61,529 bases of DNA from the IMG/VR virus record IMGVR_UViG_3300043775_000604, positions 1-61,529 of that record, one strand, 5' to 3'. The translations under genes and the position numbers were made by a program. The first letter of the stretch is position 1. Every line of letters starts with the position of its first letter. Below the pieces are notes generated by a model that searched no databases, was not told the DNA's origin, and saw only the letters and a list, made by a program, of their open reading frames with translations. This DNA is from a virus. Below are positions 22,640 to 49,982 of this stretch, in pieces.

Positions 22640-24082
22640 ATGGGAGCAATAATAGAGGTAAAATATTTCAATACTTTTTTACTAAAGAAAACTACAAATT
22701 CAGATTATGAAGGAGAATGGAATGGTTCTCTTGGTATTCCTGAAAGTTTAGGTGGTTACCCAGGCCCAGTAACTCCTTTCACACAAGAAGACTATAACTG
22801 GGTAATTGAGGAAGCTAGAATAACGGGGGGATATAACAATACCTCCGTTGATTTTGGAGTAAGGGCTTATTTAGTAGAAGAAGAACCTAATGCAAGCGTT
22901 AGAGGTAACTCTTTAATATATTCTGGTATATTTAATTCTAGAACAGGTGTAAACAATACAAATGTATTTTCTATAGGAGATGAGATAACTAGAAGTCTGG
23001 ATCCGGCGAGTGGATCAATTCAAAAGTTATATGCAGAAGATACCAACTTAATAATCTTTCAAGAGAATAAAGTAAGTAGATCTTTAATAGAAAAAGACGC
23101 TATATATTCAGCCGAAGGAGGAGGTGCAGTTACTTCGTCAAATGTTGTAATTGGACAAAATATTCCTTATGCTGGTAATTATGGAATAAGTAAAGATCCA
23201 CTTAGTTTTGCAGCATATGGTTATAGAAAATACTTTACAGATAGATATAGAAATAGTGTTTTAAGATTGTCTCAAGACGGAATTACAGAAATATCAGAAT
23301 ATGGTATGACAGATTTCTTTAGAGATACATTTACTAACATAAGTTCAGCTAATTACGGTCAAGGTAATATAATAGGCAGCTGGGATGCTTATAATAAGCA
23401 ATACATGGTTTCGTTACAAACAAGCGAAGCTAATCCAACCCAGTCTTATGCGACATTGAATTTTGATGATACAATAAACGGATTCACTAGTTTCTTTTCT
23501 TTTAAGCCAACTAGAATGTTCAGTGTTAGAAGCAGTTTCTATTCAATAAAGGATGGTGCGTTGTGGGAGCATTACGCTAAAAATGCATCTGCAGGAACTT
23601 TTTATGGTACGCAAACAAAATCATCGATCACATTGATATTCAATAAAGATGTTGGTATAAGTAAAAACTTTAAGACTGTAAACTACGAAGGTGATAATGG
23701 TTGGCAAGTAGATAGCTTTATAGGTGATGTGCAAAAATATGATTTTGGAAGTGTCTTCTACAACTTTGGAACAAGCAATGATACGACCGCACAGATACCA
23801 AGTTATATTGGTGGAGCATATGACGCGACCGGAGCTACATACCCTACACTTTTAACTCCTCCTATATATAGATATGGGTTTGAAAGAAAAGAGAACAAAT
23901 ACTATGCTAACCTAGTTAACAATAGTGCTCCATTTAGCGGAGAGGTTTTGTTTGGAGAACAGATGTCGGGTATAAAAGGGAGATTCGCAACAGTTACTTT
24001 ATCTACTGATAATATTACAGATGTGAATGGTCTTAAGGAATTATGGAGTGTTGGTACACAATATGTGATGTCAAGCTATTAA
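22640..24082 (+). CDS. Large tail protein, C-terminal part of a split gene
   Basis: A 480-residue protein with NSLIYSGIFNSRTGVNNTN, then IFQENKVSRSLIEKDAIY, then KDPLSFAAYGYRKYFTDRYR and DGITEISEYG. As I recall, these motifs lie near the C-terminus of a single large tail protein in related phages. Here they begin in a new ORF with its own ATG, 40 bases after the previous stop. It is probably a separate subunit of the same tail assembly. A sequencing frameshift is less likely because the join has several stops and a plausible A-rich leader. Confidence 0.6.
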   Translation: MGAIIEVKYFNTFLLKKTTNSDYEGEWNGSLGIPESLGGYPGPVTPFTQEDYNWVIEEARITGGYNNTSVDFGVRAYLVEEEPNASVRGNSLIYSGIFNSRTGVNNTNVFSIGDEITRSLDPASGSIQKLYAEDTNLIIFQENKVSRSLIEKDAIYSAEGGGAVTSSNVVIGQNIPYAGNYGISKDPLSFAAYGYRKYFTDRYRNSVLRLSQDGITEISEYGMTDFFRDTFTNISSANYGQGNIIGSWDAYNKQYMVSLQTSEANPTQSYATLNFDDTINGFTSFFSFKPTRMFSVRSSFYSIKDGALWEHYAKNASAGTFYGTQTKSSITLIFNKDVGISKNFKTVNYEGDNGWQVDSFIGDVQKYDFGSVFYNFGTSNDTTAQIPSYIGGAYDATGATYPTLLTPPIYRYGFERKENKYYANLVNNSAPFSGEVLFGEQMSGIKGRFATVTLSTDNITDVNGLKELWSVGTQYVMSSY

Positions 24083-26910: not shown

Positions 26911-29900
26911 ATGTTTGAATACATCGATGCCTCTGGGCAAATATATACAGAAGATCAAATCAACAAAATGGCAGCCGAGCAAAAAACCTCGGCTAATGCC
27001 ATTATAAAAGACAAAGGATTAAAAAGAAAATCTTCAATGGTTTCAGCTTCTGCAAAGCCAGCTAAAAAAACATATCCTTGGAGTGATCAAACAAAAGAAA
27101 AAAAATCAGAAGGCGATTTTCTTGGCACATTCAAAAAAGCTCAGAAGAATAAAAAAGCAAATATAAAGAAGAGCACTGAGGAAGTATCAGCATTTGTAGG
27201 TAAACAAAATGATTATTCGTTTTACCAAAAAGATCCTATACAAGACATTTTAAATCCAACTAGCGAATTTGAAAAAGCTATTGCAAATATTCCAATTAAA
27301 AAGGAATTTGAGATACTAGAAGAGAAGGAAGCAGAAGTAATGAATTATATAAAGAGCAAGCCTATTGACTATGCCTCTATTGATAAATTATATGCAGATG
27401 AGGTTAACGATTCTCAAACAATAGATTACATTAGAGAAGGTGCAAAAGGGTTCCTTAATGATGTTATATTAAGCCCAGTATCTATGGTAGGGCAAGTTTT
27501 AGGCGCTGATATAGATATGACTATATCTCCATACAAGCCATTAGAGACACAAAAAAAGAAAGCTATAGATATATTATCAAAGAAAGCTAAAAAAGGCCAG
27601 AAAATAAACGCTGCAGATGTTGATGCGTTAGCTAAGGAGATATTTTATAAAGAGCAAGTATTAATACAAGAGGGCAAAGCTGCGGAAGAATATTGGGATG
27701 ATCAACCTTTATACATCGGAGAAGTAGCTGCACAGAAAGAAAAATTAAAAATAAGAGCAGTACAAGATGTATTGGTATCTTCTGATTTAGCTAGACAACA
27801 AACTATATTAGCTAAAACATATAACAGCCAATTATCTTCATTTGAAAAGTATGCAAATCTTTTTAAAGACAAATATACTAAAGGGGAAGTTACAGAAGAA
27901 GAAATAGCTACTTACGAAACAAGAAGAGAAGATGCTAGAAAGGCTATGGATAACCTTAAAGGTATTGCAGATAATTATCCTGCTTATGTTGATAAAATAA
28001 AAACAGACGAAGAGAAATTAGAGTATTTCAAATATAATTATGATGATGTAACCGCTAATCTATCCAAGTTTATTGGTACTGGTATAAATATATTAGGTGG
28101 AGCTACAAAGTTAATTGGATCTACAATTGAATATGCTGAAGGAGACGAAAAAGGATTAGGTGGATTTTTAGGAGAAGTTGGTACTGCTAATATAGAAATG
28201 GGTAATAAAATAAAAGAAGATGCTAAGAATATATCATTTGATAATGTTAATTCTTTTGGTGACTTTGGTAAATATTTTGCTGGACTAGTTTCAGAACAAT
28301 TACCTATTTATGCAGCAATGTATTTTGGTGGGAATTATGGATTGGCCGCTGTATCAATGGGAGCTGGTGGGCAGAAGATCCAAGAAATGGAAGATGAGAT
28401 TGGTTCTGATTATGATCTTGGTACAAAGCTTTTAGCTGGGTATGGGTTTGCTCTTTCAGAGTTTATACCTGAAAAATTAGGTACACTAAGGATGTTTGAG
28501 AACATGAAGAAAACAATGTCCGCGGTCAGCAAACAGCAAAGACAGCTATTCAAAGATAGCTTTATAAAGTCTAGTCTAAAAACAGCTGGTACTATTGGTT
28601 TTGAAAGTCAAATAGAAGGAGCAACTGAAGTTGTTACCGAAGGATTAAACATGCTTTTAGACGAGCATTTATTAGGCCAGCCAGTTTCTCCAACAGATAG
28701 AGTCAAAAGATTTAAAGAGGCTTATGCTGGAGGCGCATTTATGGGAGGAGGAGCTCAATTTGCAGGTGGTGTATCAACTTTAGTGGCTAAAGAATTAAAG
28801 AACTACGCCACAGATAAAGAGTTAGCTGCTAGTAAAGCAATAATGGAACGTATTGACTTTTTGCAAAATGAATTACAAACTAACCCTAGATTATCTGGAA
28901 AAGAAAGTGAAGAAATAATAACTGAAATAAAAAAGCTCAGTAATGAAGCTGTTAAAGTTATTGAAAATTCAGAAGACAGAGTGTATGACATGTCAAAGGA
29001 AGACATGGTTGATGTTCTACTTATAAACAAACAACAACAAGATCTTAGAGACGCTTACGTTGAATTATCTCAGTCAAACTTTTCGCCAGAGATTAAGAAA
29101 GAAAAAGTAGCAGAATTAAAAAAGCAATTTGGCGAGCTAGAGAATAAAAGAGAATACTTATTAACCGGTAAGTATGCTGAAATAAATAAAATAATAGGTA
29201 ACAGAACTATTATTAATAGCGGAGCCGATAATATAAGAAAAATTGTAGCTTCATTAGGTGAAGAAAATATTGAGAATAGAATAGGTGGTCAAGGATCAAT
29301 CGCTGTATTTGAAGATATCGACTCACTTAAAAAAGCTTACAAAGAATGGTTAACAACCGAAAATAATACTATTAAAAAGAAGATTGCTGATGGCGAACTT
29401 CCTGCTAATACAAAAATAAAATCAGAAGATGAAATAACTAATGATGTAAATGAAGCTGCAAAAAACGATGGATTTGCATTGCCAAATGGTCAATCTGTTA
29501 TTAATCTTAGTGTAGCTTCAAGAACTGGAGCTATTAACGTTGCGCAGCATGAGTTTTTGCATAAAGTATTAGCTAAAGCCCTCAGTAACCCAGTAGAAAG
29601 AAAAAAAATTGTTAATGGGTTTTTAGCTACATTGACGAATAAAGAAAGAGCTGCTGTTCAAAAACGTATTGATGAAAACTATTTAAACCCTGAAACAGGT
29701 AAGATAGACGACGAGAACCTTGAAGAATATTTTACAGCGTTTATTGATGCTATTGCTTACGGAGAAATAGGTAATAGAAATCAAGTTAAAGATGTATTAA
29801 GAAGAGCTGCTCGTCCAGTATTAAAAGTATTACAGAAATTAGGATTCTCTAACGCTAAATTTAGCGAAGGAAGAGATTTCTATGACTTCTTAAAAGAATA

Positions 29901-32900
29901 TCAATCTAACGCTAGTAAGGGCAGAATAAGTAACAGAGCTAAAGCTTTATTAGATGGAGCATCTGTAGCTAGACCTATTAGATACTCAAAGTCAATTGAA
30001 GAACGCATGGACGATTTGGATGAGCAACTTAATGATGGCGAAATTGACTACGACACTTACGAGAAGAAAATGGTTGCTCTGGAAAAAGAGGAAGCTGAAA
30101 TGAAACGTAAAGAATACGAAGAAAAGAAAGCAGAAACGGGTAAGGAGCCAGAAGTTAAGAAAGCAGACAAAAAAGCTACAAAGCAAAAAGAGCCGAAATC
30201 AAAAGAGGAAATAGAGATAAGTGAAGTTGCCGCTAAAGCTAAAGCTAAGCTTGATGCTATTGGTAATGATCCAAGAGGTTACAATCCAAATAATCCAACC
30301 ATATATGATGAGTTAGCTAAAATGGTTAAAGTAAAATCGCGAAACTGGAGAACAAACAAAGGAACTGTTATAGATTTTACAAATAAAGATAAGGGCGGAT
30401 TAGACGGTTTTAGTTTAGAGGAAATGGTGAGTTATGTTAGAACATCGATGATACCATATATTGCTAAATTTGATCCCTCTAAAAATAATAGTTTATACGG
30501 ATATATAAATGCTCAGTATATAAACCGTATGCGCGGCGCATTAAAAAGCGGGGAAGTTGCTGATGTGGTATTTACTGAGGATGTTACTGAAATGACAAAA
30601 CTATCTGCGGAGGATGTTGAGCCAACAAAACCATCTTTACCGGAAAGAAAACGTTTTCAAAATATATTAGAATCTGGTGTATTCAGCCCTGATGTTATTG
30701 AAAATATACAAGCAAAAATATTACCAGTTGTAAGAACTTTAAGAGCTAATATCAACGAGAAAACATCTTTGAATAGAACTGTAGCTCCAATTATTAGTGA
30801 GATACGTGATGAGATGGGTAAGCAAGCTGACATTGATATTAAAAAAGCAATGGGTGGAAAAGAAAATCAAGAATTACAGAATTGGTTAATCACTAATAAA
30901 AAGACTATTCTTGAGAACATGACAACAACATGGCTTATGGGTAAAGACATGGGCGATAAAGTTGCTGGTGGTATGCCGTTTGCCATACAAAAAAGAGTAG
31001 ATGGCCGATGGCTTAATTACCCTGCTTGGGTTGGTAAAAAGATAGATAGAGAATCTGTAGACGTTGACTTAGCTGGTAGAACAGCTGGTCACGAGATGGC
31101 AAGAAGATTACCTGAGGTGAATAGAAATGTTGAAACAATGGAATATTTATCTTCAATTATAGATTTAGAAACGGGTAATCCAATTAGAGGTAGGAAAGAA
31201 TCTTTAGCTAAAGCATTAGCAGAGGAGGTATCATTTGATATTATATCTGATGACTTATCTTCTAACGGCCCTATTGCACAAGCATTAAATAGAAACCAAC
31301 AATTAAAAGGAGCTGTAGTTGAAGACATAATAGTTGAAGAGTTTAATAGATTAGCAGAAAGAGGAAATGTTAAATTTTCTATATCTAATACAAACATCGA
31401 CTTAAATGCAGCTGCTAGATTTATGATAGACTCTAAAGGCAATATGGATGTCATAAATGCAGCAATAAACAATAAGTCTAAAAATTACAATATAAATGAA
31501 TTCCAAAAACTATACAAGTATATAACTAAGTATGGTGTAACAGATGAGGACTTAAAGTATCTAATGGATAAATACAGTGATGTATCTAACGAAGTTGCTG
31601 GTCCTCTTATGAATGACAAAGAAGTTAAATTCTCTAAATCATTGGAGAATAATTTGAATTCATATAATAAATCCGATAAGGGTATTACATTAGTCTCTGA
31701 TTATATTGCTGAAAACAATATTAAGAGAATAGATGCGGAAACCGCTTTCGATGTCTTAAACGATCTTAATAAGTCAATTGAAGATTGGTGGAGTGTCGTT
31801 GAAAATAAAACAATAGAAGGCATGATGAGTTCTGTTGATTATGCGTTTGATGTAATCGAAGATCGTGAGAACGAAGGCGGACCTATGATGGCCGCTGTAA
31901 ACAATGCTCTTAATTTAGAGACAATTAAGTTTGCTGAGAAGCAATTAAACGATTGGATTAGTAACGACACTAAGTGGAAAGCAAGACCTAAATTTAGTAA
32001 GTCATTATCCACTCTTTCACAATTTAATGATATAAGTAAATCTGAAAAAGAATTTATTGATATTTCTGAGAAGTTTGTTAAAGATGTGATGAATAAAAGC
32101 GGGTTGAATAGAAAAGCTATACAGCTTGAGACATTAACTATAAAAGAGGATAATGAGCTATATAATTTTGATCAGGAATATCAAGAGCTATATGATAAAG
32201 ATTATGACGGCACAATAACAGAAGCTGAGAGGGCAAGGATGGAGGAAATATATAAAAGTAATGTATTAGCTAAACAGGTTAATAAGATACTTGAAATATA
32301 TACTAAAGCAAAGATTAACAGCAATAATAATGATATAGTAAATGCTGTTGAAAGTTCAATGCCTAAAAAAGCTTTAACTACTACAAAATTTAGTAGATCA
32401 GGAGGGCCTCTTTCTTCTGTTGAAGAAACCTCTAAAGCTGTAACAGGAGTCATTGACAATATAGACCTGCGTAGCTTTCCTTTTGAAGATCAATCTGCAG
32501 TACAAGCTTTTATCGATGTAGTTAATAACATAAATAAACTAGGTTATAACGTAAGTGATATAAAAACATTTAAAGACTATTTTGACTTTGTAAACCAGAA
32601 CGAGGTAATTAAAGAATATCTAGAAGCTGTAGGCGAAATCGAAGGATTAAATGATATATACAATACTCATGTAGAGAACGTATCAATATATGAAATGGAA
32701 CCGGTTGTATATGGAATAGATACAGATGCTTCAAGAAATAATACCTACATATTAGCCTCTGATGTAATAGACCCTAATTCAGGTGAAATTATTGCTAAAG
32801 CAGGAAGTAAAATAAATGAGGGTATCATTGAAGAAATAAACACTAAAGGTAAAGGATCTATAAAAGAAGTTGAAGTATTTATAGGTAAAATGGCTATGGA

Positions 32901-35448
32901 TAGTAAAATTCCTAACAAGGATTTATTAAAACTAAAAGACAGCATTGCAGATCTTTCTTTAGCGTCAAAAAGAAAAGTAGCTGAAGCAATTTCAGAGAAG
33001 TATCATAAAGCAAAGAGTAAAGGAGATACGGAAGTTGAAAACGCTAGAACATTGACAAAAAAAGAAAGGACAGAGGCTATAGCTAAACTTACGGACTCTC
33101 AGAAAGAGGACTTATTCGTAATAGATGTAGTAGAGAATGTTGTTCCTAAAGATAATGGATCTAGACCTGGTAAATCTTTAGATTATGAATTTAATGACAT
33201 GCTTGAACGTAATAAAGGTGTACCATCATACGAAAAAATATCTGATATTGTTGCGAAAAGGAAAGGGGCAAAAGTAAATAGATTTTCTTTCTATATTCCT
33301 CCTTCAGCTGATGATTTTATTGGACTGACTTCATATATGTTTGCAGGCAAAGGCAAGCAGGGAGAATTAGACCAACAGTTTTTTACGCGTTACTTAATTA
33401 TACCTTATGTAAAAGGAATAAATACACTAGATACAGTAAGACAATCTATAAAGAAATCATACAAAGAACTATTATCAAGTTTTCCTGAAATAAAATCTAA
33501 GTTAGAGAAACTTATTCCTGATAAGTCATTTACATACGATCAAGCTATTAGGGTTTATTTATGGGCAAAGAATGATATAGATATACCGGGTTTAGATAGA
33601 AAAGATAAAAATAAGCTAGTATACATAGTAAAAAATGATCCAGACTTAATTGCATTTGCTGAAGCTTTATCTATTGCTGGTAGGCAAGACGGCGGTTGGT
33701 GGAAACCGTCTACTACATGGGATAGTGAAACTATTATATCGGATCTACACAACATTACAGAAGGCGATGGTAGAAAAATGTGGCTAGAGGAGTTTATAGA
33801 AAACGCTAACACAATATTTTCTAAAGAAAACCTAAACAAAATTCAATCTATATATGGTACCAGTGTAAGAGAGGCTTTGGAAGACGCATTATATAGAATG
33901 AAAAACGGGAAAAATAGACCTGAAGGCACGGATGCGTTAACCAACAGATGGATGAATTGGATAAACGGATCCACTGCTGCGATCATGTTTTTCAATTTAC
34001 GTTCCGCTATTTTACAAACGATATCTACTACAAACTATTTGAATTGGAGTGATAACAATCCTTTAATGGCAGCAAAAGCGTTTGCAAATCAAAAACAATA
34101 TTGGGCGGATTTCGCTATGATTATTAATTCTGATAAATTAAAAGAAAGAAGATCTGGATTGAAAGCTGATGTTACGCAATCTGAAATTGCAAATGCGGCT
34201 AATAATGCAAAAGATAAAGCAAGAGGTGTTCTATCTTATCTACAGAAAATAGGGTTTACGCCTACACAAGCAGCTGATAGTTTTGCGATTGCATTAGGAG
34301 GATCTACTTTCTATAGAAATAGAGTTAATACCTATTTGAATAAAGCAGACGAAGACGGGAACTTGATATATACAGAAAAAGAAGCAGAAGATTTAGCTTG
34401 GCTTGATTTTTCAAGAGCAACTGACCAGTCAATGCAATCTGCTGATCCATTGTATGTTTCAAAACAACAAACAACTTCATTAGGGCGCCTTGTACTAGCT
34501 TTTGCTAATACTCCTATGCAATATAATAGATTAATTAAAAAAGCTTCATTAGACTTAGTTAATAGGCGTGGCGATTGGAAAACAAATATATCAAAAATAG
34601 TATATTATGGAGCCTTACAAAATATTATATTTTCAGCATTACAAGCAGCTTTATTCTTACCATTTGATGACGAGGAAGAAGATATTGCCAATATGACTAA
34701 AGAGCAGAAAAAAGAATATGAAAAGTTAAAAAAGAAAGAAGACGATAAAGCTATTAATATTTTAAATGGGATGGCTGATACATTGTTAAGAGGATCTGGT
34801 ATTACAGGTGCATTAATATCTACTATTAAAAATGTTTACATGGAATATAATAAGCAAGAACAAAGGGAGATGTTTGCGGACCATGCTTATACTATATTAG
34901 CTGCTGCGGGTATATCTCCACCTATAAGTTCCAAGGCTAGAAAATTATACGGAGCGCATCGTACAAAAAAATTCGATAAAGATGTAATAGCTGAACGCGG
35001 ATGGGAAATAACAAAAGACGGTAAGCTTAATCTTAGTCCTAATTATCAAATAGTCGGTAATATAGCTGTAGCAACTACAAATATTCCTCTAGATAGGGTT
35101 GTTGAAAAAGTAAATAATGTATCTGAAGCATTAGATTCTCGTAATACAAAACTACAAAGAACAGCATTAATGCTTGGATGGAAAGCGTGGGAATTGAATG
35201 TTAAAAACGAAGAAAGCGAAGCAATCAAAGCAAAAGCTAAAGAAGTAAGAAATAAAGAAGGGGTAGAAAAAGCTATAGAAACTAGAGAAAGAAAGACAGA
35301 TTCAATAAAGCAAATGATAAAAGAAATGCCTAGTGCTGAAAGAAGTGCTTACCTTAGAAAGCAAAAGCTAGAAAGAAGAGAGAAGACTATTGAAAAAAGA
35401 AAGAAAGCTATAGCTAAAAAGAATAAAAGAAGAATGGGCGGTGATTAA
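26911..35448 (+). CDS. Giant multidomain virion (polyvalent) protein
   Basis: A 2845-residue protein, probably carried in the virion and ejected with the DNA. Visible parts: Lys-rich N-terminus; Gly/Ala-rich hydrophobic segments at about 451-490 and 607-625; zinc peptidase-like HEFLH at 880-884; charged linker 1030-1140; a sigma-2-like helix set with AKFDPSKNNSLYGYIN at 1183-1200; an EF-hand-like loop DKDYDGTITEAE at 1762-1773; conserved hydrophobic helices at 2350-2380 and 2563-2595; basic coiled-coil end. Five KFSKS-type boxes (1024, 1488, 1573, 1694, 1826) punctuate the middle. It resembles phage large polyvalent proteins. No polymerase motif found. Confidence 0.75.
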   Translation: MFEYIDASGQIYTEDQINKMAAEQKTSANAIIKDKGLKRKSSMVSASAKPAKKTYPWSDQTKEKKSEGDFLGTFKKAQKNKKANIKKSTEEVSAFVGKQNDYSFYQKDPIQDILNPTSEFEKAIANIPIKKEFEILEEKEAEVMNYIKSKPIDYASIDKLYADEVNDSQTIDYIREGAKGFLNDVILSPVSMVGQVLGADIDMTISPYKPLETQKKKAIDILSKKAKKGQKINAADVDALAKEIFYKEQVLIQEGKAAEEYWDDQPLYIGEVAAQKEKLKIRAVQDVLVSSDLARQQTILAKTYNSQLSSFEKYANLFKDKYTKGEVTEEEIATYETRREDARKAMDNLKGIADNYPAYVDKIKTDEEKLEYFKYNYDDVTANLSKFIGTGINILGGATKLIGSTIEYAEGDEKGLGGFLGEVGTANIEMGNKIKEDAKNISFDNVNSFGDFGKYFAGLVSEQLPIYAAMYFGGNYGLAAVSMGAGGQKIQEMEDEIGSDYDLGTKLLAGYGFALSEFIPEKLGTLRMFENMKKTMSAVSKQQRQLFKDSFIKSSLKTAGTIGFESQIEGATEVVTEGLNMLLDEHLLGQPVSPTDRVKRFKEAYAGGAFMGGGAQFAGGVSTLVAKELKNYATDKELAASKAIMERIDFLQNELQTNPRLSGKESEEIITEIKKLSNEAVKVIENSEDRVYDMSKEDMVDVLLINKQQQDLRDAYVELSQSNFSPEIKKEKVAELKKQFGELENKREYLLTGKYAEINKIIGNRTIINSGADNIRKIVASLGEENIENRIGGQGSIAVFEDIDSLKKAYKEWLTTENNTIKKKIADGELPANTKIKSEDEITNDVNEAAKNDGFALPNGQSVINLSVASRTGAINVAQHEFLHKVLAKALSNPVERKKIVNGFLATLTNKERAAVQKRIDENYLNPETGKIDDENLEEYFTAFIDAIAYGEIGNRNQVKDVLRRAARPVLKVLQKLGFSNAKFSEGRDFYDFLKEYQSNASKGRISNRAKALLDGASVARPIRYSKSIEERMDDLDEQLNDGEIDYDTYEKKMVALEKEEAEMKRKEYEEKKAETGKEPEVKKADKKATKQKEPKSKEEIEISEVAAKAKAKLDAIGNDPRGYNPNNPTIYDELAKMVKVKSRNWRTNKGTVIDFTNKDKGGLDGFSLEEMVSYVRTSMIPYIAKFDPSKNNSLYGYINAQYINRMRGALKSGEVADVVFTEDVTEMTKLSAEDVEPTKPSLPERKRFQNILESGVFSPDVIENIQAKILPVVRTLRANINEKTSLNRTVAPIISEIRDEMGKQADIDIKKAMGGKENQELQNWLITNKKTILENMTTTWLMGKDMGDKVAGGMPFAIQKRVDGRWLNYPAWVGKKIDRESVDVDLAGRTAGHEMARRLPEVNRNVETMEYLSSIIDLETGNPIRGRKESLAKALAEEVSFDIISDDLSSNGPIAQALNRNQQLKGAVVEDIIVEEFNRLAERGNVKFSISNTNIDLNAAARFMIDSKGNMDVINAAINNKSKNYNINEFQKLYKYITKYGVTDEDLKYLMDKYSDVSNEVAGPLMNDKEVKFSKSLENNLNSYNKSDKGITLVSDYIAENNIKRIDAETAFDVLNDLNKSIEDWWSVVENKTIEGMMSSVDYAFDVIEDRENEGGPMMAAVNNALNLETIKFAEKQLNDWISNDTKWKARPKFSKSLSTLSQFNDISKSEKEFIDISEKFVKDVMNKSGLNRKAIQLETLTIKEDNELYNFDQEYQELYDKDYDGTITEAERARMEEIYKSNVLAKQVNKILEIYTKAKINSNNNDIVNAVESSMPKKALTTTKFSRSGGPLSSVEETSKAVTGVIDNIDLRSFPFEDQSAVQAFIDVVNNINKLGYNVSDIKTFKDYFDFVNQNEVIKEYLEAVGEIEGLNDIYNTHVENVSIYEMEPVVYGIDTDASRNNTYILASDVIDPNSGEIIAKAGSKINEGIIEEINTKGKGSIKEVEVFIGKMAMDSKIPNKDLLKLKDSIADLSLASKRKVAEAISEKYHKAKSKGDTEVENARTLTKKERTEAIAKLTDSQKEDLFVIDVVENVVPKDNGSRPGKSLDYEFNDMLERNKGVPSYEKISDIVAKRKGAKVNRFSFYIPPSADDFIGLTSYMFAGKGKQGELDQQFFTRYLIIPYVKGINTLDTVRQSIKKSYKELLSSFPEIKSKLEKLIPDKSFTYDQAIRVYLWAKNDIDIPGLDRKDKNKLVYIVKNDPDLIAFAEALSIAGRQDGGWWKPSTTWDSETIISDLHNITEGDGRKMWLEEFIENANTIFSKENLNKIQSIYGTSVREALEDALYRMKNGKNRPEGTDALTNRWMNWINGSTAAIMFFNLRSAILQTISTTNYLNWSDNNPLMAAKAFANQKQYWADFAMIINSDKLKERRSGLKADVTQSEIANAANNAKDKARGVLSYLQKIGFTPTQAADSFAIALGGSTFYRNRVNTYLNKADEDGNLIYTEKEAEDLAWLDFSRATDQSMQSADPLYVSKQQTTSLGRLVLAFANTPMQYNRLIKKASLDLVNRRGDWKTNISKIVYYGALQNIIFSALQAALFLPFDDEEEDIANMTKEQKKEYEKLKKKEDDKAINILNGMADTLLRGSGITGALISTIKNVYMEYNKQEQREMFADHAYTILAAAGISPPISSKARKLYGAHRTKKFDKDVIAERGWEITKDGKLNLSPNYQIVGNIAVATTNIPLDRVVEKVNNVSEALDSRNTKLQRTALMLGWKAWELNVKNEESEAIKAKAKEVRNKEGVEKAIETRERKTDSIKQMIKEMPSAERSAYLRKQKLERREKTIEKRKKAIAKKNKRRMGGD

Positions 35449-35813: not shown

Positions 35814-37682
35814 CTATACAATCTCACAGTTACCTCCTCCACAAGCTGCTGAATCAACAAAGTTAGTATTGTCTTGAACTTCAATTACTTTTGATAGATC
35901 AACATTCTTTAATGTAGACATCATCTCCTCGTAAACTTCTTTGGTACAATCTTCAAATGGAGTTTGTTTGTATGTTCCGCCATTATATGGTAAAACAGAT
36001 AATCCATTATAGTACTCTTTATTTGCCCACATCCATTCACCAATGATTTTCCATTCATCATCTCTGACAGAAACAGTGCAAGATACGTTATGAGTATTGT
36101 TGCCTTTATCGTGACCTGTCTTAACCCAATCCTTAGATATAAGTTTTACTCTTTCTAATAGATCTAATGTAGACTCATGTCGTGTTATAGCTCCGTCTGG
36201 AGCCTTCTGAGGAACAGAAATGACTGACTGTAATGTTGGATTAAAATATTCATCTTCTAACAGTTCTGGATGATTTATTGCAAGATATGAATATATTGCT
36301 TCATTCTTACCTAGTCTCATTCTTCGAATATAATAATCATTATGCCAAGCATGTATACCAGAAGAAGTACCAAGCACAAGACTAGTAGTACCTGCTGGCT
36401 TAACTGCTGTAGTTCTAGCAGCTTTATTAATATTAAGAGCAGCAGAAATAATACTATTTGTTTCTTTAACAACTTTAGACGCCTCTTCATAATTTAATTC
36501 TAAGTTAGATTTTGATGCAATACCGGTCATTGACACTCCAAGCAATGCATCTTTTTCTGTATTCTTTCTCCATATATCACGTAAGTAATGGAAGTCTGAA
36601 TACGATGCCTGTAATGTTCCTAAGAACGATGCAGCTGATGCTCTAGCGTTGAAATCTTCTTGATTCTCAATATCAGCCATATTAATTTCCGTTAAATTAC
36701 AGAATTGATAGGGTCTTAACGCAATTTCGCAACAAGGATTAGTTCCCCAATCTTTATCATTAGTAAGATAAATACCAGGTTCACCAGATCCAGACGCTTC
36801 AATACGTTCCCATACTTTGTCGAAGGTTTTCTTGTCAATCTTATGGCGTAATAAAACTACAGAGTTATTAGCTCTACCTCTTTGTGGATTCTCTTCCCAC
36901 CAATTTCCAGCTTTACAATTCAACATTGCGGTACTATCAAGATCAAATAATGAAATCATCGCAGCTCTACGAATTCCCCCAGCTAAAACAGCATCGGCAA
37001 TATGACACTGAATATCGTGACACTCAATATCTGTTAATTTAGATCTATCTTCTTTCTCTCTTAAGATAGCTTCAACCTTCACTAAAGCTAATCTCAATGG
37101 CTCTGGACCTGGTGCTTTTCCGCCTGCTGTAACAAGCAATGCTCCTTTGTGGCGAATATCTGAAAGATCAAATTCAATATGTGAGGTAAGCTCACCTGTA
37201 TAAGATTTAAACAATGTTTTAATTGCATCTGCCCATCCAATTATACTGTCTTGAACAACGTATCTTTTCTTACGATCATAATTAGGTTTTCTTATTTCCG
37301 GTAATTTATCAATGTTGTGATTTTGTACCGAATATCCAACGCCAGTTCCTCCAAGTAATAAAAACATAGTCTCGGAGAAGCTACGAATATTATCAATAGG
37401 TAGAAAAGCGCAGTTATAAATACGAGCATTATTAAGCTCAATAGCTTTACCACCAAACTGTAAGCTTCGCATCGATGGTAAAACTTTTTTAGTGAACACA
37501 AAATCTTTGTATATCTGCTCAATTTGTTCTTTCATTTGCGGAAATTTGGCTTTGTGCATATCCATATTCCTGGTTACTAATTCTTCCCACGTTTCTCTTC
37601 GTTCTTTTGATGGAATATACTTTGCATACTTGGTGTATACGGTTATATCTGACAAGATCTGCTTATCTAAACTAAGACTCAT
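35814..37682 (-). CDS. nrdJ: Class II (B12-dependent) ribonucleotide reductase
   Basis: A 622-residue monomeric adenosylcobalamin-dependent reductase that makes deoxyribonucleotides without oxygen dependence. The catalytic set is present: YNC with Cys91 and QFC with Cys328 as the redox pair, NPCCE with Asn315, thiyl-radical Cys317 and Glu319, and C-terminal shuttle cysteines Cys614 and Cys619. It is shorter than the Lactobacillus RTPR (about 740) but keeps all these sites. It needs host cobalamin. With the MazG and thymidylate synthase-like genes it supplies the nucleotide pool. Confidence 0.92.
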   Translation of the reverse strand: MSLSLDKQILSDITVYTKYAKYIPSKERRETWEELVTRNMDMHKAKFPQMKEQIEQIYKDFVFTKKVLPSMRSLQFGGKAIELNNARIYNCAFLPIDNIRSFSETMFLLLGGTGVGYSVQNHNIDKLPEIRKPNYDRKKRYVVQDSIIGWADAIKTLFKSYTGELTSHIEFDLSDIRHKGALLVTAGGKAPGPEPLRLALVKVEAILREKEDRSKLTDIECHDIQCHIADAVLAGGIRRAAMISLFDLDSTAMLNCKAGNWWEENPQRGRANNSVVLLRHKIDKKTFDKVWERIEASGSGEPGIYLTNDKDWGTNPCCEIALRPYQFCNLTEINMADIENQEDFNARASAASFLGTLQASYSDFHYLRDIWRKNTEKDALLGVSMTGIASKSNLELNYEEASKVVKETNSIISAALNINKAARTTAVKPAGTTSLVLGTSSGIHAWHNDYYIRRMRLGKNEAIYSYLAINHPELLEDEYFNPTLQSVISVPQKAPDGAITRHESTLDLLERVKLISKDWVKTGHDKGNNTHNVSCTVSVRDDEWKIIGEWMWANKEYYNGLSVLPYNGGTYKQTPFEDCTKEVYEEMMSTLKNVDLSKVIEVQDNTNFVDSAACGGGNCEIV

Positions 37683-37849: not shown

Positions 37850-38296
37850 CTATTTTTTGTTTTGGTTAGCTAATATTAATTCTATTGTTTTAAGGCACTC
37901 CGGTTGATTTTGTGGTTTGTATAAAGTTCTTCTGTCATCATTGTCCATCATCCACTTTTTAAACATCTTCCAACGCAAGGGAAACGAGTCATTAGCTCTT
38001 CCCTTAGTTTCGATTATGAATGTTTCGCTAATAAAGTCAGGAGTGTATTTAAGATTTAATACCTTTTTTAATCCTCTATCAATAAAATCTCCTTTTCCGT
38101 TTGATTGTCTTTCTATTGATGAGTTTTCAAATGTAAAAGAGGGTAACAATTCAAACGTTACCCCCTCATATTTAAAATCTATATTAGCATCTTTCAAAGC
38201 TTTATACATATACTTCTCAAGACCTGACTTAAACGTAATACCATCATATATTATTTTCTTTGACACTACTGGCCCTTTCTTTCTACTCTTTGCCAT
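37850..38296 (-). CDS. Endonuclease I-like PD-(D/E)XK nuclease
   Basis: A 148-residue basic nuclease with Glu27 (FKSGLEKYMY), Asp87 (YTPDF) and Glu96-x-Lys98 (IIETKGR), the ordered residues of T7 endonuclease I-type Holliday junction resolvases. It probably resolves branched DNA before packaging and may degrade host DNA. It overlaps the upstream MazG-like gene by 14 bases, in a cluster of replication genes. Confidence 0.75.
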   Translation of the reverse strand: MAKSRKKGPVVSKKIIYDGITFKSGLEKYMYKALKDANIDFKYEGVTFELLPSFTFENSSIERQSNGKGDFIDRGLKKVLNLKYTPDFISETFIIETKGRANDSFPLRWKMFKKWMMDNDDRRTLYKPQNQPECLKTIELILANQNKK

Positions 38297-38726
38297 TCAT
38301 ACAACAGTTAGTACAACAATGACTCCATTCAATATCGTCATCTATAGTAAAAGAATATGTATCACCTCTGCGCACTTTATAAGCTTCTTTTTTCTTTTTT
38401 TTCTTTTTCTTTTTTGGTTCAGCAAGAATTTCAAATCCTTTAAACGGAGAGACAAATTCTGGATCTTCAACTTCAATAAAATTTGCCTTAGAACGTTCAA
38501 TCCATAAATCTTCTAATACATCTTCAATCTCAATCTTTAATCTTTGGATATATAATGTAGCATCCATCAATTCTTCTTGAACATGATTAAGCCAAACTTT
38601 AATATCAGACTTGTCATCAATCATTGTTTTGCCATATTTAGCAAAGCCTACATCAGATCTTGATACAAACTTATTTACTACTTGTTGTACAACTGGGTCT
38701 CTAAATTCAATTTCTTGTTTCTTCAT
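38283..38726 (-). CDS. MazG-like NTP pyrophosphatase domain with Lys-run and Cys tail
   Basis: A 147-residue protein. Residues 20-70 form an all-alpha MazG-like domain (GFAKYGKTM, then VQEELMDATLYIQ, with Glu51, Glu52, Asp55). Residues 105-113 are nine lysines in a row, coded by an A-run that includes eight consecutive A. The end has a CCTNCC cluster (137-142) that may bind metal. It is probably a nucleotide house-cleaning enzyme, and is next to a second MazG-like gene. Confidence 0.6.
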   Translation of the reverse strand: MKKQEIEFRDPVVQQVVNKFVSRSDVGFAKYGKTMIDDKSDIKVWLNHVQEELMDATLYIQRLKIEIEDVLEDLWIERSKANFIEVEDPEFVSPFKGFEILAEPKKKKKKKKKEAYKVRRGDTYSFTIDDDIEWSHCCTNCCMNGKE

Positions 38727-38727
38727 A

Positions 38728-39549
38728 TTATAAAGTTGATTTTACAAAAGTTCCATTCTCCATTTTACCTTTTCTATTCTTAATTACATCATAAGCTGAT
38801 GTAACACAATCTTCAATTTTTAATCCTTCTAATGCAGCCAGATTAGTTAATACAACAACTGCATCACCAATAGCATCAATCAATTCAGCTCTATCATTTT
38901 TTAATATGGCTCTAGCAAGTTCTCCTGTTTCTTCTTGAAGTTTAATAAACTGAGTTTTAGCATCTCCAGATCTATATATACCTTTATTATCAGCCCATTG
39001 TCTAATTAGATCATATACATTTGGAACTTCTTTATTAACTTCTTCAGGGTAATTTTTATATTCCAATGTTGTTGATTTTTTACCTCTAGACATTTGAAAT
39101 TCGTTTAAAGCTTTATTGTACACATAAGATCTTGAAATATTGAACATTGATGTTTTAGCATTATCAATAATCCATCTGGCTAATTCTTCATCTACAATAT
39201 ATTTGCCAAATGATGTTTCAATTTTTAATCCTAAGTTGTCCATTAAATTACCTTTTAATTTGTTAACAGGACAAGGAAATGTTGTCGTCTGTTCAGTTAC
39301 ATTTAATACCATAGTGTTTTTCTTTTGTTTAGTTTTATTTATTATTAAATCTTTATATGAATCACGATCTACTTTATAGCCATGCCTTAACTGTAATTCA
39401 GCTTCTCTTTTGGAGACATAGTTTATATTATCACTGCATTCAAGCACCTCGTATTCTCCAGGCAAATAGCCTTGTTCTATTGTAACTCTCTTATTAAGAT
39501 TACGCGTTACGCCAATCTTTTTACCAAAAACATGATAGATAAAATACAT
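38728..39549 (-). CDS. GIY-YIG-like and MazG fusion protein
   Basis: A 273-residue two-domain protein. Residues 1-60 resemble a small GIY-YIG-type domain (YFIYHV, then KIGVTRNLNKRV, then EVLE), with a weak catalytic set. Residues 175-270 are a clear MazG nucleotide pyrophosphohydrolase: Glu207 and Glu210 in EETGE, Glu222 and Asp225, Asp229 in IDAIGDA. The middle 80-170 is unassigned. It may remove non-canonical or host alarm nucleotides during replication. The nuclease half is uncertain. Confidence 0.7.
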   Translation of the reverse strand: MYFIYHVFGKKIGVTRNLNKRVTIEQGYLPGEYEVLECSDNINYVSKREAELQLRHGYKVDRDSYKDLIINKTKQKKNTMVLNVTEQTTTFPCPVNKLKGNLMDNLGLKIETSFGKYIVDEELARWIIDNAKTSMFNISRSYVYNKALNEFQMSRGKKSTTLEYKNYPEEVNKEVPNVYDLIRQWADNKGIYRSGDAKTQFIKLQEETGELARAILKNDRAELIDAIGDAVVVLTNLAALEGLKIEDCVTSAYDVIKNRKGKMENGTFVKSTL

Positions 39550-39557
39550 AATTTAGA

Positions 39558-40343
39558 TTAAATGGCCACTTTTGCCGTAATTACTGGACCGTGTTTATAA
39601 TTTATTAAGGATAATGCTCCGTTTTCATAAATATAGTTGGGAGATTCAAAAGTCTCTTGCCCGAAATATTCACGTATAGCATCATGTTGGTTGTTATATA
39701 TGTGAGCATCCACAATCTGTATATCAATATAGTTTGCTTTGAGGTTTGTTTTTTCAGCCACATATAAAAGTATTTTAGAAAACAACGCAACATCATAAGG
39801 TATACCTAAGAATAGATCTCCAGATCTTTGTACTACAAACATATTAAGATAGTCTTTTTCAACAAAGAATTGGAAATACAAATAGCACGGAGGCAAGCGC
39901 ATTTGATCTAGCTGACAAGGATTCCACAAGCTTATAATATGTCTACGGCTATCTGGATTGGCTATTAATTGTTCAATAAGCGTTTGCATTTGATCAATAT
40001 TTTGATCGTTAAAATTGCGCATTTGATGTCCGTATACTGGCCCAAGATCTCCATTCTCATCTGCCCAAGCATCCCATATTTTTACGCCCGCATCTCTGAA
40101 TCTTTGTATATTAGTTTCGCCATTCATAAACCATTCGAACTCTGTATCAAATGTTTTTTGAAACATTTTTCTACCTGTTATTAATGGGAATTGTTTGTGA
40201 ATATTAATTCTTAAACTAGCATTGAATATAGACTTACAACCAACGCCAGTACGATCGTCTCTATCTACTCCTTGAGCAAGTGCTTTCCATAATAATGATT
40301 TGTATTGATCCTCGTATGTATGTGACTTAAAATAGTTGTTCAT
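39558..40343 (-). CDS. thyA: Thymidylate synthase homologue, possibly dCMP-specific
   Basis: A 261-residue ThyA-family enzyme with catalytic Cys153 (LPPCYL), the QRSGDLFLGIP phosphate and base loop, and a DAHIYNNQ block. The Asn that reads the uracil ring in ThyA (E. coli Asn177, in LPFN) is Asp184 here (IPYD). In T4 dCMP hydroxymethylase this position is Asp and gives dCMP specificity, so the product may be a 5-substituted dCMP and not dTMP. GHQM replaces the usual GxQW. Overlaps the next upstream gene by 17 bases. Confidence 0.85.
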   Translation of the reverse strand: MNNYFKSHTYEDQYKSLLWKALAQGVDRDDRTGVGCKSIFNASLRINIHKQFPLITGRKMFQKTFDTEFEWFMNGETNIQRFRDAGVKIWDAWADENGDLGPVYGHQMRNFNDQNIDQMQTLIEQLIANPDSRRHIISLWNPCQLDQMRLPPCYLYFQFFVEKDYLNMFVVQRSGDLFLGIPYDVALFSKILLYVAEKTNLKANYIDIQIVDAHIYNNQHDAIREYFGQETFESPNYIYENGALSLINYKHGPVITAKVAI

Positions 40344-40683
40344 TTATTATTTGTTTTGGTTTTTGTTTAGCTGGTTCTTCTTTTATATATTTCTTTGGTT
40401 GAACTTCTTTTATAACTTTTACGCCACTGTGCTTATCATAGTAATACGTATAAAACTTATAAATTTCTTTCCATATTTCAATCTTCTCATAAGCTAATGG
40501 GCTTTGTGTAACTTTACCGTTTAAAGTAATACATATATACCATTCAGTCGTACTCTTAGCTTTAGGAGCAATAAATATATTATTATGTATGCACCAAGCG
40601 TAAGCCGCTTGCTCTCTGTCTTTGGCTACATAATTACCCATATCTATTGCTTTGCTTTTCTTAGATCCACTACCCATTATCAA
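40327..40683 (-). CDS. Unknown conserved early protein
   Basis: A 118-residue basic protein. The first 80 residues are ordered (AAYAWCIHNNIFIAP, then EWYICITLNGKVTQSPLAY), the rest is Lys/Pro-rich. It overlaps the thymidylate synthase-like gene by 17 bases and its upstream neighbour by 14. ATG codons at residues 1 and 3 are both possible starts. No family recognised; the context is nucleotide metabolism. Confidence 0.6.
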   Translation of the reverse strand: MIMGSGSKKSKAIDMGNYVAKDREQAAYAWCIHNNIFIAPKAKSTTEWYICITLNGKVTQSPLAYEKIEIWKEIYKFYTYYYDKHSGVKVIKEVQPKKYIKEEPAKQKPKQIINEQLF

Positions 40684-40873: not shown

Positions 40874-41000
40874 ATTTTTTAATTATCAATTTAGCAATTT
40901 TTTTGATAAGTAGTTCACATGATTCACATTTATCGCCTTCCTCGTCAACGCGAATAAATTGACAGCATCTACATTTTGGTTTTGATTTATCTATTCCCAT
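40866..41000 (-). CDS. Tiny Cys-rich (zinc ribbon-like) protein
   Basis: A 44-residue protein with KCRCCQ near the start and KCESCE after a 13-residue acidic spacer, a plausible zinc ribbon, followed by a basic tail. It overlaps the stop of the primase-helicase gene and the start of the next gene, in the usual compact early style. Possibly a small replication accessory; the role is not known. Confidence 0.6.
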   Translation of the reverse strand: MGIDKSKPKCRCCQFIRVDEEGDKCESCELLIKKIAKLIIKKYG

Positions 41001-42718
41001 GGCAACTTATCTCCTGAAGCATTGACTGGAACATGAGGAATAAAACATCCTGACTTTGGTTCCCAAACAAAATGACATTCAGCACCATTCTCACCAAGAT
41101 TTTGAAACTTAACCTTTAGTACTTTTACTTTTACAGTTTTCTCTTCGTAGTTTCTATGCACTAATAAACCGTGATAGGATGCATCATACCACTCGCCTCC
41201 GCCCTTAATATTATACATGGTTGGTTCTTCAATTTTACCATCGGAGCCTTTATACATTTTAGTTGGATGCGCAACAACCATTACTAGAACATCGTATTTC
41301 TTAGCAAAGATTTCAATCTTACTTAAGTATTCCAATGTATATACATTAACATCACCTGAAGCATCATTATCTCTAACTTTATTGAATGGATCTATAACTA
41401 AGCATTTAATACCTTTACGCTTTACTAGTTCGCCTGCTTTCTTTAACACAGCATCTAATGTATATCTTTCCATGTCAATGAAAAAGAAATTGTCGTTAAC
41501 ATGATTAGCAACTTGATTCCATCTCTCAGAATAAATATCTGCTTCTGTTGGCATACCTTCCCAAACTTTACGCATTAACTTATGAGCATGTAAATAAGTA
41601 GGTGTATTCTCAGGTGAAGCATAAGCTGTTTTCCAACCATAGTTTTTATTATAGCCTACAACCATTTGATCAACGAAATCAGACTTACCCGAACTAGGCA
41701 CACCAGTAACAGTAATAAACTGACCAGTATAAGTGCTGAATATATCATCGAAATTAGGTAATCCAATTTGGAAGCCAGGTTTGAAACCATTCCTAACAAA
41801 GTCCGTAATCTCATCTTCTATATCTTTAAATGTTGTAACGTTTTCTAATGGTACAGGTTTTGCTTTTCCAATTCTTTGCGCTAAAGCTTCTTTACCATAT
41901 TTCAATAAATACTCATTAGCATCTTTACAATCCTCAAACGTGGCTATATAACAAACTTCAGATCCTAATCTTCTAATCAATTCAGATTGTAATGCTTGAC
42001 CAGCTTCATCTGAATCTACCGCAATGATTATTCTATTCTTATCATCGAAGTAATCAATACAGTTATCTAAGTATTCAAGGTTGTTTGTATGTAGTGTTGC
42101 GCCATTAGGTACTGAAATAGCATTTGTTATTCCTGCTTCTGCAAGGGCTAATACATCCATCTCTCCTTCTACTAGTATGCAGTAATCCCAACCTACGATG
42201 CTGTTGATATTATAGAATACTTTTTCTGCTCCTTTGTAAAGCTTAAAGTTTTTACGGCCATCTCTGTATTTTATATTAACAAGATCATCGCCTATAAAGT
42301 AATTAAACTTTATTACGCTTTCTGTTTTAGCTGTTTGAGGCATGAACTCTGATCCGTCTGTAACTTTTAACTCTTCTAATGTGTTTCTTGATATGCCTCG
42401 TGTTGCAAACCATTCCACTACCTTATCAGATAAAGGATAAGTTAAACCTGAATCAAGAACAGTATCTCTCTCTGGTTTTACATATACTTTTTGCGTTTCG
42501 CCTTTTCTTTTATAAGTATGTAATTGAAATGACTTACTACAATTGTGGCAAGTACCAATTCCTCTTTCCCAATCATAAGAGGCACATTTTGCTTTCTTGT
42601 GTTCACCTTTTCTGTCAGCTGAACATAATGGACAAATACCTTGGGTTTTTTCTTCCAATCCATATTGATTAAAAGAATCTATTTGGAATCCATTTATTTC
42701 GGTTTTGTTTACTTGCAT
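40991..42718 (-). CDS. Bifunctional primase-helicase (T7 gp4 type)
   Basis: A 575-residue replication protein. N-terminal zinc-binding domain with Cys29, Cys32, Cys57 and Cys60; Toprim primase core with VEGEMD (Glu184) and AVDSDEAG (Asp235, Asp237); RecA-like DnaB helicase with Walker A GVPSSGKS at 339-346, Walker B LVIDPF (Asp443) and VVAHP (His484). It should unwind the fork and prime lagging-strand synthesis. A terminator lies just upstream, so it may be transcribed less than the recombination genes. No DNA polymerase partner is encoded in the window. Confidence 0.95.
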   Translation of the reverse strand: MQVNKTEINGFQIDSFNQYGLEEKTQGICPLCSADRKGEHKKAKCASYDWERGIGTCHNCSKSFQLHTYKRKGETQKVYVKPERDTVLDSGLTYPLSDKVVEWFATRGISRNTLEELKVTDGSEFMPQTAKTESVIKFNYFIGDDLVNIKYRDGRKNFKLYKGAEKVFYNINSIVGWDYCILVEGEMDVLALAEAGITNAISVPNGATLHTNNLEYLDNCIDYFDDKNRIIIAVDSDEAGQALQSELIRRLGSEVCYIATFEDCKDANEYLLKYGKEALAQRIGKAKPVPLENVTTFKDIEDEITDFVRNGFKPGFQIGLPNFDDIFSTYTGQFITVTGVPSSGKSDFVDQMVVGYNKNYGWKTAYASPENTPTYLHAHKLMRKVWEGMPTEADIYSERWNQVANHVNDNFFFIDMERYTLDAVLKKAGELVKRKGIKCLVIDPFNKVRDNDASGDVNVYTLEYLSKIEIFAKKYDVLVMVVAHPTKMYKGSDGKIEEPTMYNIKGGGEWYDASYHGLLVHRNYEEKTVKVKVLKVKFQNLGENGAECHFVWEPKSGCFIPHVPVNASGDKLPWE

Positions 42719-44596: not shown

Positions 44597-45364
44597 TTAT
44601 AGGTAATCAAGGACTTGCGAGGAATCAACGTTCGCAACTAGTTTAGCTATCGCTTGCTTTTTTATCTCAGAAATTCTAACATAAGCACTTGCTCCTTCAA
44701 TACCTAAATAGTCTGCTATTGCATTTGCTGGATGCTTATCGCAGTCTAAACCGTAACTTAATCTCAATACATCGTTTTCTGTTTGTGTTAAATGTTTACT
44801 TAATAAATCTACTAAGTATTTATTCATTAAGTTTATATTGTAAGGCTCAGCTCTATCAGGGATCTGATACAACATATTGTCATCATCATCATCATCACTC
44901 ATTTGTTCATCGATGCTAAGGAATATTGAATTGAAGAACATTGATACCATTGCATGATCCTGACCATTATCCTTCCTAATTTCATTTAGTTTATGTTCTG
45001 GGATCTTAATAGCGCCTCTATTGATATCTATAGCTCTTCTAATCGAGCCTTTTATTCTTTTTGATAGAAACGACTTGATTGTTTTTTCTTGATCAACAGA
45101 CGAGCTTATTGTCTTCCATTCTATTTTATCAACAGCTAATATTAAACCAATTGATCCGTATTGAATAAGGTCTGTAATATCTAGTACACCGCAAGCTTGG
45201 GTTGTAGTTGAAAACTTTTTAGCTATGTTTTCTACTAATGGTAGAAACTTACTTATAAGTTGATCTCTAGAATAAGATTCAAAGTTAACTTCGTTGTTGT
45301 TTTTATTAACACGAGCTATATCTTCTTTGTATCTAATGTAATTTGGTATGTTGTAGCTTTTCAT
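44597..45364 (-). CDS. Phage RNA polymerase sigma factor
   Basis: A 255-residue sigma-70 family protein. Region 2 spans about 35-112 (LISKFLPLVENIAKKF, DLIQYGSIGLILAVDKIEW, FLSKRIKGSIRRAID), a region 3 start IKIPEHKLNEIRK is at 119-131, and region 4 spans 192-242 (LTQTENDVLRLSYG, then a helix-turn-helix ending KKQAIAKL). Six consecutive Asp near 157-162 form an acidic linker. It should redirect host RNA polymerase to phage promoters; the 16 repeated elements at 48.8-58.1 kb or the late elements are candidate targets. Confidence 0.85.
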   Translation of the reverse strand: MKSYNIPNYIRYKEDIARVNKNNNEVNFESYSRDQLISKFLPLVENIAKKFSTTTQACGVLDITDLIQYGSIGLILAVDKIEWKTISSSVDQEKTIKSFLSKRIKGSIRRAIDINRGAIKIPEHKLNEIRKDNGQDHAMVSMFFNSIFLSIDEQMSDDDDDDNMLYQIPDRAEPYNINLMNKYLVDLLSKHLTQTENDVLRLSYGLDCDKHPANAIADYLGIEGASAYVRISEIKKQAIAKLVANVDSSQVLDYL

Positions 45365-49619: not shown

Positions 49620-49892
49620 TTATTTCTTTTTAATTTGTTCAAACCACAACTCTTTCATTTCTGCTTTAGTCTTATCAGCATAAATATGTTTATAAAACTT
49701 TTCAATAGTTTGTTCTGTTATTTTTTTAACTTCTTCTTCACTATACTTATTCTTATCTTGTTCTTGTTGCCATTTAGCACCCTTAATAAAAGTATCTTGT
49801 TTTATAATATTAATAATATCTTTTGATTTAACTCCATAATCTGTTGGATATAGTCTTTCAGCAACTTCTTCAAGTGTTTCTTTATTTTTCAT
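49620..49892 (-). CDS. Small charged helical protein
   Basis: A 90-residue Lys/Glu-rich protein (LEEVAERLYP, then FIKGAKWQQEQ). The start at 49892 is chosen because the longer frame from 49967 would lie within the tRNA that follows upstream. Small proteins with this FIKGAKWQ pattern are common in phages of this kind; function unknown. Confidence 0.6.
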   Translation of the reverse strand: MKNKETLEEVAERLYPTDYGVKSKDIINIIKQDTFIKGAKWQQEQDKNKYSEEEVKKITEQTIEKFYKHIYADKTKAEMKELWFEQIKKK

Positions 49893-49909
49893 AGTTTTAA
49901 TTTGTTTAG

Positions 49910-49982
49910 TAGTCAGGACAGGATTCGAACCTGCATCTTCCCGTTGCCTGAACGGGCTCGTTACCATTTACGCCACCTGACT
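49910..49982 (-). tRNA. tRNA with unusual anticodon loop
   Basis: A perfect 7-bp acceptor (AGTCAGG against CCTGACT), a D arm with GCG and TGGTA, and a T arm GCAGG, TTCGAAT, CCTGT. The anticodon stem CCCGT/ACGGG encloses TCAGGCA, which puts C instead of T at position 33 and gives anticodon AGG. If the last stem pair opens, the loop becomes TTCAGGCAA and CAG follows a normal TT. The isotype is therefore uncertain (Pro-like AGG or Leu-like CAG). No CCA is encoded. Confidence 0.75.

Follow-up and report, generated by a model that had tools for sequence, protein, structure and literature searches.

A thymidylate synthase homologue predicted to methylate dCMP, encoded beside a MazG-type enzyme in a virus related to Flavobacteriia phages

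Results

The window, by which we mean the whole 61.5-kb virus record analysed here (33% G+C), encodes a thymidylate synthase (TS) homologue whose residues suggest a cytosine reader on a methylase body, that is, a predicted dCMP methylase. The best explanation as a whole, which we consider probable, is that a dCMP-specific methylase and the neighbouring MazG-type enzyme provide 5-methyl-dCMP, leading to phage DNA that contains 5-methylcytosine (5mC). The positions of the features are collected in Table 1.

Table 1. Features of the window discussed in the text, with their positions, strands and supporting evidence.
Feature	Position	Strand	Evidence or remark
TS homologue, predicted dCMP C5-methylase, D177/Y147 type	39558-40343	-	PF00303, AlphaFold2 model, residues
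Asp184 codon (Asn177 in E. coli TS, Asp179 in T4 dCMP hydroxymethylase), cytosine-recognition residue	39792-39794	-	conserved in 85 distinct sequences
Tyr154 codon (His147 in E. coli TS), second position linked to modified cytosine	39882-39884	-	alignment; PMC8670742
Catalytic Cys153 codon (Cys146 in E. coli TS)	39885-39887	-	alignment
Leu150 codon (Leu143 in E. coli TS, Asp145 in T4 dCMP hydroxymethylase), methylase-type, not hydroxymethylase-type	39894-39896	-	alignment; PMC6400193
MazG-type all-alpha NTP pyrophosphohydrolase, proposed dCTPase partner	38728-39549	-	PF03819/PF01503; adjacency
Small conserved gene c2, same operon	38283-38726	-	PHROG 11184, unknown function; conserved in slot
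DUF1064/Holliday-junction-resolvase-like gene, downstream in operon	37850-38296	-	Pfam and PHROG matches
Small gene c5, directly upstream of TS, slot marker	40327-40683	-	84 loci
Primase-helicase, upstream anchor of slot	40991-42718	-	PHROG match
Class II-like ribonucleotide reductase, in the same nucleotide cluster	35814-37682	-	PHROG 367, E 3e-129
GroEL	2477-4039	+	phage-encoded
GroES-like protein	8045-8647	+	phage-encoded
crAssvirus muzzle protein domain matches	22640-24082	+	PF25729, PF25731; yet portal relatives are flavophages
Single protein of 2845 aa, end of structural genes	26911-35448	+	no annotation
Protein resembling sigma-70 region 2, perhaps a phage sigma factor	44597-45364	-	Pfam/PHROG
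tRNA-Pro gene	49909-49982	-	overlaps ORF 49620-49967

Identity and active site of the TS homologue

The open reading frame starts with ATG and encodes 261 amino acids, which matched the Pfam profile PF00303 with an E value of 2.8e-74. The structure prediction that had been suggested as a check was obtained with AlphaFold2 from 43 sequences (pLDDT 93.6), and the nearest PDB fold to this model was E. coli TS (TM 0.92, 38% identity), with TSs also on top in a profile search. The protein is 39-43% identical to true TSs and has the TS fold together with the catalytic Cys, Arg, Asp, His and Tyr residues of the PF00303 superfamily. No relatives were found in bacterial and archaeal genomes, and neither ThyX nor a second TS was found as a backup; in each of 22 whole contigs, the TS of the window's type was the sole one.

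According to the original prediction, the Asn of the LPFN motif is replaced by Asp in this protein, and so it proved: Asp184, with the codon GAT on the minus strand, occupies the place of E. coli TS Asn177 in alignments with solved TS structures and phage TSs. The numbering of the E. coli TS reference matches both the PDB alignments and the positions given in the literature (C146, H147, N177, L143, W83 and Y94). An Asp at position 177 appeared in all 47 relatives from IMG/VR (54-98% identity), and the wider set comprised 85 distinct D177/Y147 sequences (hereafter D/Y), every member of the clade having Asp177, Tyr147 and Leu143. Since this Asp is conserved across relatives with both Asp codons (GAT in 68 cases and GAC in 18), Asp184 is neither an error nor a private mutation. 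Moreover, the dN/dS values against relatives, of about 0.07-0.17, indicate strong purifying selection on the D/Y clade.

A second change that had gone unmentioned, His147 to Tyr154, accompanies Asp184 without exception. Among 175 aligned TS-superfamily sequences, 85 were L143/Y147/D177 and another 85 were H147/N177 (83 of the latter with L143), the other five presenting D177 with P147 or T147 (AXL1, DLP4, RDJL Phi2, Triscuit gp66 and T4 gp42), and no mixture of H147 with D177 or of Y147 with N177 was found in the 175; these are counts of sequences and not of independent events, since the sampled D/Y clade may go back to a single origin. The tree of the D177 types has long branches and gives no firm answer on one versus several origins.

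The MazG neighbour

The original prediction also linked the TS homologue to MazG enzymes, a link that gained support from the gene order. A MazG homologue of the window's type adjoined the TS in 83 of the 84 distinct D/Y TS genes, at 24 bases or fewer in 79 of them, and this adjacency was maintained despite otherwise unrelated flanks (L102, L116, L125 and L132). The sole exception was a marine Autographiviridae phage (L049), which has a PF01503 pyrophosphohydrolase of its own next to the TS, together with a P-loop kinase.

The MazG domain occupies the C-terminal portion of the product (about 100 aa), the N-terminal part being unrelated to it. Of the metal-binding motifs EExxE and ExxD, residues E206, E207, E210 and D225 were invariant and E222 nearly so. 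The closest PDB folds to the MazG model were the mouse and human dCTPases with E values of about 5e-3, a weak match of fold that is too weak for specificity, and it counts against our explanation that MazG enzymes vary in specificity. DCTPP1, the closest fold, reportedly takes part in the metabolism of 5-methyl-dCTP (PMC4491611). We infer that the MazG partner is a dCTPase.

Variation was also seen around this domain and in the cluster. In one relative (L116), the N-terminal part matched T5orf172 (GIY-YIG-like), and some relatives carried the MazG part alone (L125, 107 aa). Furthermore, class I ribonucleotide reductase (RNR) genes, for the large and small subunits, replaced the class II-like RNR in relatives (L034, 4938-6671; L123, 6669-7643), a further exchange of enzymes within this cluster.

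A hydroxymethylase-type enzyme in the same slot of sister phages

The strongest evidence on function came from a closely related contig (G026), whose portal and terminase are 65% and about 76% identical to those of the window, respectively. Between c5 and MazG this contig has a different TS-superfamily gene, separated from MazG by a short run of N, and the encoded protein was a closer match to MilA and T4 dCMP hydroxymethylase than to any TS. A total of 576 relatives of this enzyme were found in a scan of IMG/VR, of which 80 were fetched for analysis. All 69 distinct sister sequences had the full T4 signature (Ser94, Tyr96, Asp145, Cys148 and Asp179), and a MazG of the window's type was located 15-31 bases downstream in all 72 of the loci whose sequence extended far enough in that direction. 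Upstream, c5 was present in 57 of 64 loci and the primase-helicase in 63 of 64. The T4-signature enzyme thus belongs to the slot of the sister phages and not to that of the window phage. As two active-site types with the same cytosine-reading Asp occupy one position beside one MazG partner, the function of the slot is very probably the C5 modification of dCMP.

Whether a TS-derived dCMP methylase and a dCMP hydroxymethylase of the T4/MilA type interchange in this slot across a large flavobacterial phage clade, giving whole-genome 5mC in some phages versus 5-hydroxymethylcytosine (5hmC) in others, and extending full 5mC replacement well beyond the Xp12 group through an independently evolved enzyme, is in our judgement an evenly balanced question. 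If true, it would represent a natural swap of DNA alphabets between closely related phages. An ATP-dependent DNA ligase was present in all five hydroxymethylase-type sister genomes versus none of 13 D/Y genomes (e.g., L451, 3595-4467, minus strand), and its Pfam families have been tied to modified contigs in MetaGPA (PMC8670742). No glycosyltransferase was recognised among the genes specific to the hydroxymethylase-type sisters.

Product and substrate

The original prediction had implied a hydroxymethylase similar to that of T4, and in this respect the sequence points elsewhere. T4 dCMP hydroxymethylase is characterised by Asp or Glu three residues before the catalytic Cys, Ser or Thr two before the catalytic Tyr, Val replacing Trp83 and the lack of a C-terminal tail, and its D145N variant formed no product (PMC6400193). 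The window's enzyme has the Asp equivalent to T4 residue 179, but it presents Leu150 three before the Cys, Pro two before the Tyr and a full C-terminal tail ending in KVAI. The residues for TS methylation are kept (E58, W80, W83, Y94, L143 and D169, together with the tail), so that D177 stands on a TS methylase scaffold. As the hydroxymethylase features are missing and the methylation machinery is retained, the product predicted from dCMP is likely 5-methyl-dCMP rather than 5-hydroxymethyl-dCMP. Such a product would explain the missing glucosyltransferase, no gene for a glucosyl- or other glycosyltransferase having been recognised in the 61.5-kb window.

The residue code for methylation is, however, not settled, because the Xp12-like enzymes of phages AXL1 and DLP4, from a known 5mC group, differ in having N143/P147 and, at the second residue ahead of the Tyr, Ser. 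A third active-site type was formed by the Xp12-like and RDJL Phi2 TSs (L053, L056 and L134), with N143/P147/D177 and Ser or Thr two before Tyr94.

The best-surviving alternative is that the window's enzyme is a dCMP hydroxymethylase like T4 gp42 with a different water-activating arrangement, making 5-hydroxymethyl-dCMP. It shares Asp177 with the T4 enzyme, and the sister phages indicate that the slot can make 5hmC. Nevertheless, the whole D/Y clade lacks both the acidic residue before the Cys and the Ser/Thr before the Tyr, which all 69 sisters have, the T4 D145N result argues against activity lacking that acid, and Trp83, Leu143 and the tail are retained, making this reading improbable.

With regard to the substrate, a dUMP-specific ThyA has Asn177 and His147, at which positions the window's enzyme has Asp184 and Tyr154. 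The original prediction of a shift towards dCMP is reinforced by the coupling of D177 with Y147 and by the hydroxymethylase-type enzyme in the same slot. In MetaGPA, which compared the TSs of cytosine-modified and unmodified phage contigs, positions 177 and 147 were the two best discriminators, modified contigs had Asp at 177, and the change from Asn to Asp was described as redirecting TS to dCMP, from which 5-methyl-dCMP is then made (PMC8670742). In the CMP hydroxymethylase MilA, which prefers ribose, Ala176 and Lys133 stand where TS has Ser167 and Arg126 (PMC5175136). Here, Ser174 at the sugar site and the Arg at the phosphate site are kept, which argues for deoxyribose, unlike MilA. Taken as a whole, dCMP is likely the substrate.

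An enzyme that still works on dUMP, tolerating the Asp177/Tyr147 pair and raising dTTP during infection, would agree with the overall TS fold, with the identity to true TSs and with the nearby RNR; ordinary TS genes often lie in RNR clusters, which counts against our explanation. However, the published effect of Asn177 to Asp runs from dUMP to dCMP (PMC8670742), and the perfect coupling of 147 and 177, the near-invariant MazG and the hydroxymethylase-type substitute all fit dCMP, so that a dUMP enzyme seems quite unlikely.

Restriction palindromes

The occurrence of palindromes was compared with that of seven portal-related phages for which the 50 kb covered per phage contained no TS, namely the cultured Flavobacteriia phages elemoD, Panino, phi38:1, Calle_1, phi19:3 and Gundel_1 and the uncultured MW202828. 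Contigs G023-G032 were dropped as TS-less controls, being fragments that mostly ended short of the slot. In all seven phages, GATC was at or below 0.53 of expectation, and 1-4 C-containing tetramers were wholly lost in four of them. In the window and 12 D/Y contigs, GATC was near or above 1 in most, with a single tetramer below 0.4 (GGCC, 0.36, in G021). The counts of depleted palindromes differed between the D/Y and comparison phages (Mann-Whitney, P-values of 6e-4 for tetramers and 3e-5 for hexamers), and depletion was also absent from the five hydroxymethylase-type sister genomes. This pattern fits protected cytosine and is supportive, although not proof; the phages are related and their hosts differ, and the contrast may be a host or lineage effect. 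Moreover, several 4-base palindromes (CCGG, CGCG and others) were wholly absent from the 50 kb of Flavobacterium phage elemoD (L140) and Maribacter phage Panino (L141), which is a strong trace of restriction pressure.

Discussion

From the residues, their coupling and conservation, the MazG linkage, the slot swap and the palindromes, all of them computed, we infer co-transcription, substrate, product, MazG specificity and DNA replacement as follows. Asp184, in place of the uracil-reading Asn, would hold or protonate N3 and the 4-amino group of cytosine, and Tyr154 would stand in for the His that contacts O4. Cys153 would attack C6, and C5 would receive the one-carbon unit of methylene-THF; as the hydride-transfer machinery is kept, the proposed products are 5-methyl-dCMP and dihydrofolate. 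The presumably co-transcribed MazG probably cuts dCTP to dCMP, both supplying the methylase with substrate and depleting the normal dCTP, like T4 gp56 with gp42. Host kinases would then phosphorylate 5-methyl-dCMP, a host polymerase would incorporate it, and 5mC might replace much or all of the cytosine in phage DNA and protect it from restriction. We lean slightly towards 5mC widely replacing cytosine in virion DNA. The predicted methylation follows from residue logic, and the enzyme differs from the documented 5mC enzymes of the Xp12 group.

The portal relatives of the window are all Flavobacteriia phages where the host is known, and the window encodes GroEL, GroES, RNR, a primase-helicase, ERF and exonuclease VIII. 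Genes for a DNA polymerase, a kinase, DHFR, dCMP deaminase or a carbamoyltransferase were not recognised in the window, in which the sole convincing P-loop was that of the primase-helicase, leaving no candidate for a 5-methyl-dCMP kinase; the absence of such a kinase and of DHFR counts against our explanation. As related contigs reach 66-68 kb, some unrecognised genes may lie in missing sequence. Thus, of the two absences noted in the original prediction, that of a glucosyltransferase is expected of a 5mC phage, but that of a dCMP kinase is unexplained. A manipulation of pools with no DNA modification, in which MazG converts dCTP to dCMP and the product of the TS homologue is kept out of DNA (e.g., to cut off the dCTP supply of the host or of another phage), would suit the lack of a recognised product kinase and phage DNA polymerase in the window, but it is very unlikely, given that known dCMP-modifying phage TS enzymes serve DNA modification and that the palindromes suggest protected phage DNA.

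Comparison with known systems

The window's enzyme resembles E. coli ThyA in its fold, catalytic Cys, folate-site residues, W83, L143 and C-terminal tail, but differs from it in the Asp for Asn177, the Tyr for His147 and the MazG pairing in nearly all relatives. The engineered E. coli N177D and L. casei N229D mutants, which are dCMP methylases (via PMC8670742), carry the same change on a TS scaffold, whereas the window's enzyme is natural, adds the change from His147 to Tyr and has been under long purifying selection. T4 gp42 with the dCTPase gp56 shares Asp at 177 and the logic of a partner pyrophosphatase; however, gp42 is only 26% identical, and the window's enzyme lacks equivalents of Ser94, Asp145 and Val85 and has a C-terminal tail.

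The Xp12 group, compared through the Bosavirus phages AXL1 and DLP4, likewise has D177 and a TS adjoining a PF01503 pyrophosphohydrolase. Xp12 DNA is fully 5mC (PMC7653180), and AXL1 DNA withstands most enzymes (PMC9206674). In contrast to the window's enzyme, to which they are 27% identical, the AXL1 and DLP4 enzymes have N143/P147, and these phages also encode dCMP deaminase and DHFR. The MetaGPA TS homologues (PMC8670742) share D177, an altered position 147 and the co-occurrence of PF01503, but their association is with carbamoyltransferases and deaminases. A search for carbamoyltransferases in the window and 26 related contigs yielded none. Separately, Microbacterium phage Triscuit (L136) has a pair of TS genes (2078-2986 and 2986-3783), one of an odd D177/T147/R143 type and the other an ordinary N177 type. 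MazG and a kinase are encoded nearby, and this is probably another base-modification cluster.

Therefore, D177 dCMP-modifying TS homologues tied to cytosine-modified phage contigs were already known, and what is new is a clade on a methylase scaffold with the Tyr147 change, a near-invariant MazG and the hydroxymethylase swap in sister phages. The D/Y and sister enzymes offer a clear test of the residues that choose methylation versus hydroxymethylation on dCMP, and they supply enzymes and phages. Full replacement by 5mC is documented for phage Xp12, and a common, independently derived enzyme for it in flavobacterial phages, interchangeable with a hydroxymethylase in one operon, would, if true, show the switching of base chemistry against restriction and modification-dependent enzymes.
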